Assembly: GCF_007750395.1 (NCBI RefSeq)
Contig: NZ_CP036281.1
Coordinates: 3,557,001-3,621,000, forward strand
Direction of reading: 5' to 3'
DNA length: 64,000 nt
Origin: Polystyrenella longa
Lineage (GTDB): Bacteria > Planctomycetota > Planctomycetia > Planctomycetales > Planctomycetaceae
A program made the translations under genes and the position numbers. Position 1 is the first letter of the stretch; each line of letters begins with the position of its first letter. Of this stretch, positions 38,839 through 40,416 are shown piece after piece. The notes beneath the pieces are model-generated. The model had not been told where the DNA came from and made no database searches. It worked only from the letters and a program-made list of their open reading frames with translations.

Positions 38839-39214
38839 CGCTCCTCCAGACAACTTCAGTCATCATTCCTCTGTCGAATGACGCTTTTGAGTCCATAAAC
38901 AACGCCGATTCCCCTATTAATTTTCTGGGAAGTTCGTAGTAGCTAAACGACGCTGGAACGCTCTAAGCTTGTTGTCCTCAGGCCCATCAAGCTCGCAAAA
39001 GCATTCGTTTCCCCTATTTTGAAAGTTTTGCCAGACCCGGAATGAATTCCATTTCTTGATTCCATTCTCTAAAAACTCTGATTAGAATCGAGTGACGTGA
39101 CAAGTCTTTGAAGAAACTGACTTACTCATCATAAATCTGATACAGGGATGTACGTTCCAGGTTTATTCATCCCCGTCCGGACAATCTGTCCTTAACGGAA
39201 AGGAATCCGTTGTT
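38839..39214. other. Intergenic region before the citrate synthase-like gene
   Basis: About 375 bases with no gene recognised. Its last bases hold a hairpin that presents the ribosome site (see 39194-39211). No -35/-10 pair stood out. Confidence 0.5.
39194..39211 (+). promoter_or_regulatory. Ribosome site held in a hairpin loop
   Basis: AACGGA (39194-39199) pairs perfectly with TCCGTT (39206-39211), leaving AAGGAA as the loop. The loop is a purine-rich Shine-Dalgarno match, nine bases before the ATG at 39215. It may expose or, if extended, mask the ribosome site. Confidence 0.45.
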
Positions 39215-40384
39215 ATGCATGGTTCTCCCCATCACCGTCCTGAGCACCTCTTTTCTGGTTTAGCCAAACTCGTCGATCGTCTCTCCGTACCGGATGAAGA
39301 TGCGGCTGTCTTTGCCGACAACCTGAATACTTTCACGACTCATATTTCCAATCCACAAAAGGCGGAACATTTCCGGGGTTATTCTCTTAACGAGCTGGCT
39401 CGGAAAAATACCTTTCTGGATACAAGTTATCTGCTGTTGTACGGCGCTATTCCTAATCAGGAAGAGCTGGCCGACTTCCAGTCGATCCTCACGGAAACGG
39501 CAGAACTGCCCTCCCCTATCGCGGACATTATTCAACAGACACCGCTACACGTTGATGCCAGTGAGTTCATCCGGTCGGTGTGTGCTTTGCTTCCTCTGTT
39601 TGATTCGCAATCGAAAAGCGGTGCGGAAGAATCTGTACTCTGGCAGGCTCATAAATTACTGATGCATATTCCGCTGATTTTGATCGAACGTCAGCGACTC
39701 GTTGAAGGTTGGCAATCAGCTAAATTTGATCCCGACATTCACTGGGCGGTTAACCTTGCTCAATTATTAACCAACCGCACTCCCACCCCGCTCGGCGAAC
39801 GTGCTTTCGAAGTCCTACTACTCTCCCGTGCCGAGTTAGGATACGACGCCGCCTCACACGCCGCGCGATTGGTCGCCAGTCGTGGTGGCAATTTATATTC
39901 GGCCATTTCAACGGCTATGAATTCAATTCCCCTTGATGATTGGCAGGAAGAACGTTCCCTCGCCATTGAAGTCCTCGCGGAAGGAAATCAATTCGCGACT
40001 GAGAAATGGGCGCGTAGTTTAACACCGGGGCAGGCTCGTAAGCTCGGCTTTGGTGCCGACATTGAAAAAGAATCCGTTCGTCTCCAGTTGTTCAACACGT
40101 TCTGCTATTACCTGGCGGAAGAGAACAACATGATCCCCATGGAAAAAGCGGCACGTCGCTCAGAAAAACTGATCTTCGAACTCACCGGGCTTTCACCGCA
40201 TTCCGAATGGGCCGCCACACGAATTCTGTATTACCTCGGAATCGATATCGAGCTCAATCAACCTTTGCAGCTGATGTCCCGTATTCCAGGTTGGACTGCC
40301 CATGTCCTGGAGCAACTGCAACAGGGCCCGCTCGTTCCAGCACGACTCGAGTACGAAGGTCCGATTCACCGATACGAAAAGTAA
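39215..40384 (+). CDS. Citrate synthase homologue lacking catalytic histidines (probable pseudoenzyme)
   Basis: A 389-residue protein with the citrate synthase fold signals: FRGYSLNELARKNTFLDTSYLLLYG-like start, LVASRGGNLYSAISTAMNSI (about 219-238), GFGADIEK (278-285), LGIDIELNQPLQLMSRIPGW and AHVLEQL near the C-terminus. The residues needed for catalysis are gone. The His of PLHGGAN is replaced by an Asp-rich IPLDDW (238-243), the His of GFGHRVY is Ala281, and the Asp of NVD aligns by eye with Glu331. It is therefore unlikely to make citrate. It has its own ribosome site and no in-frame stop, so it looks expressed. A regulatory or binding role is inferred. Confidence 0.8.
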   Translation: MHGSPHHRPEHLFSGLAKLVDRLSVPDEDAAVFADNLNTFTTHISNPQKAEHFRGYSLNELARKNTFLDTSYLLLYGAIPNQEELADFQSILTETAELPSPIADIIQQTPLHVDASEFIRSVCALLPLFDSQSKSGAEESVLWQAHKLLMHIPLILIERQRLVEGWQSAKFDPDIHWAVNLAQLLTNRTPTPLGERAFEVLLLSRAELGYDAASHAARLVASRGGNLYSAISTAMNSIPLDDWQEERSLAIEVLAEGNQFATEKWARSLTPGQARKLGFGADIEKESVRLQLFNTFCYYLAEENNMIPMEKAARRSEKLIFELTGLSPHSEWAATRILYYLGIDIELNQPLQLMSRIPGWTAHVLEQLQQGPLVPARLEYEGPIHRYEK

Positions 40385-40390
40385 TCGACC

Positions 40391-40416
40391 ACAGAAGGTT
40401 ATTCATAACCTTCTGT
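40391..40416. terminator. Perfect hairpin between convergent genes
   Basis: ACAGAAGGTTAT and ATAACCTTCTGT pair over 12 bases with a two-base centre. It lies seven bases after the citrate synthase-like stop and 26 bases before the uvrB stop, so it is probably a shared bidirectional 3' end. No U-run on either side. Confidence 0.6.

Follow-up and report, generated by a model that had tools for sequence, protein, structure and literature searches.

A citrate synthase homologue without its catalytic residues in Polystyrenella longa, and the repeated loss of these residues among its relatives

The locus and the encoded protein

The stretch of DNA analysed here, 64,000 nucleotides of Polystyrenella longa (hereafter the window), contains a citrate synthase (CS)-like gene, which the initial annotation had located exactly, together with a likely ribosome site that we also find upstream of the start codon (Table 1). 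Directly 3' of the stop codon, at window positions 40389-40414, there is a perfect 12-bp inverted repeat (ACAGAAGGTTAT..ATAACCTTCTGT). It lies between the CS-like gene and the convergent uvrB and is probably a terminator shared by both. A scan for sigma-70 promoters found no site, and a plasmid collection gave no match.

Gene neighbourhoods were compared by clustering the ORFs within 5 kb of 60 loci. Apart from CS and the ORFs antisense to its gene, no family was widely recurrent across genera. The genes next to the locus vary: tsaE and uvrB in the window, hemC in g10, thrC in g5, g26 and g43, and frr in g52 (genera are given by such handles throughout, that of the window being g1). An inference of partners from the gene neighbourhood was thus rejected, no neighbour being conserved across genera.

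Table 1. Features of the CS-like gene in the window and of its domain-deleted relatives
Feature	Position	Strand	Remarks
CS-like pseudoenzyme ORF	39215..40384	+	389 aa plus stop; ATG start
Shine-Dalgarno-like stretch GGAAAGGA	39197..39204	+	10 nt before the ATG; read from sequence only
N-terminal extension, residues 1-40	39215..39334	+	helix 10-23 (EHLFSGLAKLVDRLS)
Leu208	39836..39838	+	in place of oxaloacetate-binding His238; alignment
Asp241-Asp242-Trp243	39935..39943	+	in place of HGG of the His274 loop; alignment
Ala281	40055..40057	+	in place of catalytic His320; alignment
Arg289	40079..40081	+	equals anion-binding Arg329, kept; alignment
Glu331	40205..40207	+	in place of catalytic Asp375; alignment
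Trp332 and Arg336	40208..40222	+	W/R-type clade hallmarks, in active and dead members
Arg356	40280..40282	+	equals Arg401, kept, inside SRxxGWxAHxxEQ motif; alignment
Pro375	40337..40339	+	in place of Arg421; alignment
275-aa form, G003	L243:407-1234		W/R type, g3
275-aa form, G004	L246:404-1231		W/R type, g3

That the ORF encodes a full-length CS homologue, as initially proposed, is beyond doubt. The protein matches the Pfam profile Citrate_synt (PF00285) over positions 5-352 of 357 with 166 bits against a cut-off of 27 (E 1.5e-48), and phmmer matched it to citrate and methylcitrate synthases of the PDB with E-values down to 1e-28. None of the NCBIfam cut-offs for citrate synthases is even approached; with TIGR01800 (2-methylcitrate synthase/citrate synthase II), for example, the protein reaches 158 bits, the curated cut-off being 421.3. 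The AlphaFold (AF2) model predicts a confident all-helical CS fold (pLDDT 89.6), whose best match in the PDB is the methylcitrate synthase 3hwk (Z 39.7 over 346 residues, rmsd 2.6), with citrate synthases also among the top structures. The profile score, above the gathering cut-off, and the predicted fold both place the protein in the citrate synthase superfamily. Its best structural matches are 2-methylcitrate synthases, PrpC (3o8j, 6s6f, 3tqg, 3hwk; Z 39-40), which have the NxDW motif type in common with it. However, PrpC is catalytically competent, is only about 21-24% identical to the window protein, and its motif NLDWFSAV comes without the Arg336 that the window protein has.

In pig citrate synthase numbering, with the residues of the window protein assigned by alignment with active enzymes, five of the seven substrate or catalytic residues are changed (H238, H274, H320, D375 and R421). 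The catalytic set of active citrate/2-methylcitrate synthases, His274/His320/Asp375, is therefore absent, and among the oxaloacetate ligands Arg329 and Arg401 are kept while His238 and Arg421 are replaced. The initial annotation had correctly recognized the loss of both histidines and the change of Asp to Glu, but overlooked H238 and R421. The counterpart of H274 is Asp241 or Trp243, by the placement of a two-residue gap. An orthologue from a second species of the genus (G097/JAGQQC010000471), 80% identical, carries the residue set L-F-S-R-E-R-P; because it has the same set of losses, these are not sequencing errors. An alignment artefact was likewise rejected, two different aligners being in agreement and the orthologue concurring. 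The same orthologue (L004/L161) stops eight residues earlier via an in-frame TGA, and from this the C-terminal tip of the protein seems dispensable.

The W/R-type clade and the losses within it

In a tree from which the catalytic columns were left out, the window gene falls into a clade of CS-like proteins apart from the second CS of its own genome, with SH-aLRT support of 93 for the whole clade and 99 for the part within the window's family. Trp332 is found in every member of this clade and Arg336 in all but two; canonical CS usually has Phe at the Trp332 position. We call these proteins the W/R type, a name distinct from the usual "type II" (GltA) label. Relatives of the W/R type were found in many families of the class Planctomycetia. 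In three searched genomes of another family of this class, f5 (G518, G538, G554), the W/R type is the sole CS and has a complete active site; the sole CS of G070 is likewise an intact W/R-type protein. Since the only CS of these f5 genomes has the full active site, the W/R-type ancestor was, judging from the sequences, very probably a working house-keeping enzyme. Active W/R-type enzymes (e.g., G150/L157 and G518/L193) share the clade and both hallmark residues with the window protein but, unlike it, nearly all have complete H238/H274/H320/D375/R421, g36 lacking H274. The N-terminal GLxxLVxR-type helix of the window genus is also found in the mostly intact g14, g21, g23, g30 and g36, as well as in the degenerate g17, g34, g52, g50, g6, g7 and g46.

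With the window protein as a query, a W/R-type gene with an open frame was detected in at least 40 of the 58 genera of the window's family; the Pfam profile also found such genes in g6, g7, g16, g46 and g50, and no copy was detectable in g28 and g47. Many of the genes in this family are intact (HHHRDRR). In at least 17 genera, they are severely degenerate: at least two of H274/H320/D375 are lost in g1, g5, g9, g10, g25, g26, g34, g45, g49, g52 and g58, to which g6, g7, g16, g46, g50 and the domain-deleted g3 are added. One core residue is lost in g17, g22, g36, g42, g43 and g44.

A single loss of catalysis was rejected, as degenerate lineages are nested in supported clades with intact members and their N-termini differ. 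The losses are not one event because g25 belongs to a clade of support 97 with mostly intact relatives, g5, g26 and g43 to a clade of support 99 with intact g51, and g10 to a separate clade of support 100 with a short N-terminus. The branches leading to the dead lineages are long, with 1-1.6 changes per column accumulated ahead of the crown of the genus; the tree tool flagged long-branch joins, and the order among these lineages carries no firm support. Overall, the orthologues in other planctomycete genera that the initial annotation had thought worth aligning do exist, many of them degenerate, and the degeneration is broader than one gene, being a repeated event across the family.

To describe what the severely degenerate genera have retained, we scored the 46 columns in which conservation among active CS reaches 95% or more. 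H238, H274, H320 and D375 are each kept in 18% of these genera and R421 in 33%, versus a mean retention of 82% for conserved columns away from the catalytic loops (Mann-Whitney p = 3e-5). R329, R401 and the GWxAHxxE motif are retained at 100%.

Second hits in g2, g15, g37 and g38 were at first taken as further degenerate forms and then excluded; those in g2, g15 and g38 keep H274, H320 and D375, lack W332 and R336, and look citryl-CoA-lyase-like. The proteins in question (L280-L283, from g38, g15 and g2) have equivalents of H274/H320/D375 and a C-terminal extension, and match the profile over positions 147-350 only.

Selection, a domain-deleted form and the co-occurring citrate synthases

Frames are open and omega is about 0.01-0.18 across the degenerate genera compared, which indicates purifying selection and bears out the initial annotation's supposition that the intact frame is under selection. 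In unsaturated pairs of g10, dN/dS of the dead gene is 0.003/0.23, 0.019/0.68 and 0.025/0.86 (omega 0.013-0.044), values as low as those that the intact CS gives in these pairs of species (about 0.03-0.05). Between the window and G097, dN is 0.125 and dS 3.2 by NG86 (0.118/2.6 by YN00), with dN/dS of the active CS of this pair at 0.06/1.2-1.4; because dS is saturated, omega in the window genus is a rough estimate from which only strong constraint can be claimed. By region, dN in this genus is highest in the small domain (0.168) and lowest in the C-terminal region (0.045). Values for g45 (0.04-0.13), g58 (0.08), g25 (0.07-0.18) and g50 (within 0.04-0.18) are somewhat relaxed, yet far from neutral. 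Thus, the window protein agrees with the notion of a pseudoenzyme on both counts: the predicted fold is kept with conserved catalytic residues lost, and selection maintains the gene, omega being well below 1 in g1, g3, g10, g25, g45, g50 and g58. The initial annotation had held that a want of constraint at the altered positions in orthologues would speak against a pseudoenzyme. These positions do vary freely while the rest of the protein is strongly constrained; such variation at old catalytic sites is what a pseudoenzyme predicts and hence does not refute it.

Two species of g3 have a 275-aa W/R-type form without about 110 residues. The deletion is in frame; it begins shortly after the His274 loop and ends shortly ahead of the Arg401 motif (SRxxGWxAHxxEQ, still present), removing the small (CoA/catalytic) domain that bears H320, R329 and D375. 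The model of this form is a CS large domain (pLDDT 86.8, pTM 0.88; Z 29.0 to PrpC), and its omega is 0.105, below the 0.176 that the intact CS shows in this species pair. Constrained although it lacks the small domain, it shows that selection has kept the large domain by itself in at least one lineage; only in g3 is the small domain dispensable. The domain-deleted relative favours a structural role for the dead CS. At L246, the 275-aa gene is directly preceded by a same-strand ORF whose product resembles GGDEF diguanylate cyclases.

The initial annotation had also suggested that an intact CS might be found elsewhere in the genome. Indeed, besides the W/R-type gene, the complete 6.13-Mb genome of the window organism encodes a single further CS (290364-291413; 441 bits), whose active site is complete. 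Genomes of the window's family normally have a second CS, and in each of the degenerate genomes checked the dead copy is accompanied by an intact enzyme of another type, which is either GltA-like or an orthologue, 58-91% identical, of the second CS in the window genome. Where the W/R type is the sole CS of a genome, that copy is intact. One and the same second CS throughout the family was rejected, since the 380-aa type (the window's second CS) occurs in g1, g10, g5, g45 and g51, and the GltA type serves as the intact CS in g9, g25, g34, g58, g6, g7 and g50. The switch of the main intact CS between these two types from genus to genus suggests that the house-keeping enzyme has been replaced repeatedly across the family. 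In g10 (L169, L170), a third CS, PrpC-like and with a complete active site and the NLDWF motif, is found beside the intact CS and the dead paralogue.

Possible roles of the dead protein and known precedents

We consider it rather probable that the dead CS is a pseudoenzyme lineage kept for a non-catalytic scaffold or regulator job performed via its dimeric large domain. The W/R-type CS that is the sole CS of the three f5 genomes would represent the ancestral form of the window gene. A second CS would then have taken over citrate production in the window's family and freed the old one. The old one, as the sequences show, has lost its catalytic residues in many genera independently while the fold stayed under purifying selection. 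The non-catalytic job was probably already present in the ancestor. The all-helical large domain, assumed to be dimeric from known CS structures, might act through protein-protein contacts, and the retained Arg329 and Arg401, where present, may still sense a dicarboxylate or a similar anion. The regulator or scaffold that the initial annotation envisaged for the window protein is thus compatible with our view of its role. With slightly less confidence, we suppose that the ancestral house-keeping CS was replaced and then converted several times independently to a structural or regulatory protein, the domain-deleted forms included. If so, a non-catalytic function of importance was already present in the ancestral enzyme.

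The dead protein might instead be a regulatory subunit that pairs with the cell's intact CS and tunes it. CS large domains dimerise, and Arg421 is contributed to the active site of the partner subunit, as is well established; an intact CS is present beside every degenerate copy checked. Pseudoenzymes, moreover, commonly modulate a catalytic relative (PMC5106787). However, the genes of dead and intact CS are never neighbours, and the coexisting CS differs by lineage (380-aa or GltA type), making one conserved partner interface unlikely. The dead protein is retained whichever CS accompanies it, so that an independent function going back to the W/R-type ancestor appears likelier than a dedicated heteromer with one CS, and we regard the latter as unlikely.

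Less likely again is a new enzyme running a different reaction in the old pocket by means of Arg329 and Arg401. Both residues are invariant wherever a degenerate member is full-length, which could be a sign of remaining or altered chemistry, although R401 lies in a motif common to all CS and may be structural, and g3 lacks R329 along with the whole small domain. The replaced positions, for their part, have not settled on any new residue and differ even among species of one genus (Ala/Ser and Trp/Phe in that of the window; Asn/Ser/Ala/His at the H320 position in g10), which argues against a new catalytic set.

We give very little credence to a pseudogene on its way out: the long branches, the higher omega in g25 and g50 and the want of a detectable copy in g28 and g47 would fit decay, but not the open frames in so many genera, omega values well short of 1 (in g10 no higher than those of active CS) or the clean, in-frame deletion in g3. 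Least credible is a citrate or methylcitrate synthase still working with an unusual active site, for even though the protein is a PF00285 member with the same predicted fold and Glu is a conservative replacement for Asp375, it has lost five of the seven residues for substrate binding or catalysis together, both catalytic His included, and changing the residue that matches GltA H306 is by itself enough to inactivate CitA (PMC7083601).

Preferring, then, a non-catalytic job for the dead protein, we would like to comment on what it would mean. The case for moonlighting by a central metabolic enzyme is as a rule made with single mutants. In these proteins, evolution itself has performed the separation of function, many times over, removing catalysis and keeping the protein; what citrate synthase may do other than produce citrate is therefore directly testable. 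Planctomycetes have an unusual cell biology and division, and some genetic tools exist for them. In practical terms, a citrate synthase annotation does not by itself make a planctomycete gene part of the TCA cycle, and many genes so annotated should be left out when the enzymes of that cycle are counted.

In the literature searched, mostly without subscription papers, no description was found of a citrate synthase pseudoenzyme or of a degenerate planctomycete W/R family, and the Planctopirus paper on essential genes is silent on citrate synthase in its main text. The closest functional precedent is CitA of Caulobacter crescentus, whose role in the cell cycle (G1 to S) survives a change of its equivalent of GltA H306 to W or A and is not supplied by CitB or GltA (PMC7083601). 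By analogy, CitA lends support to a similar way of working, though not to membership of the same group: its regulatory role is independent of catalysis, and its cell has a further CS paralogue that is functional, just as the window genome has a second CS. However, CitA is still an active enzyme, while the window protein lost its active site in evolution. Like pseudoenzymes in general (PMC5106787), which keep an enzyme fold for scaffolding or allostery after the loss of catalytic residues, the window protein represents a kind already known; what makes the case unusual is how often the conversion occurred independently, and that a form without the small domain exists.
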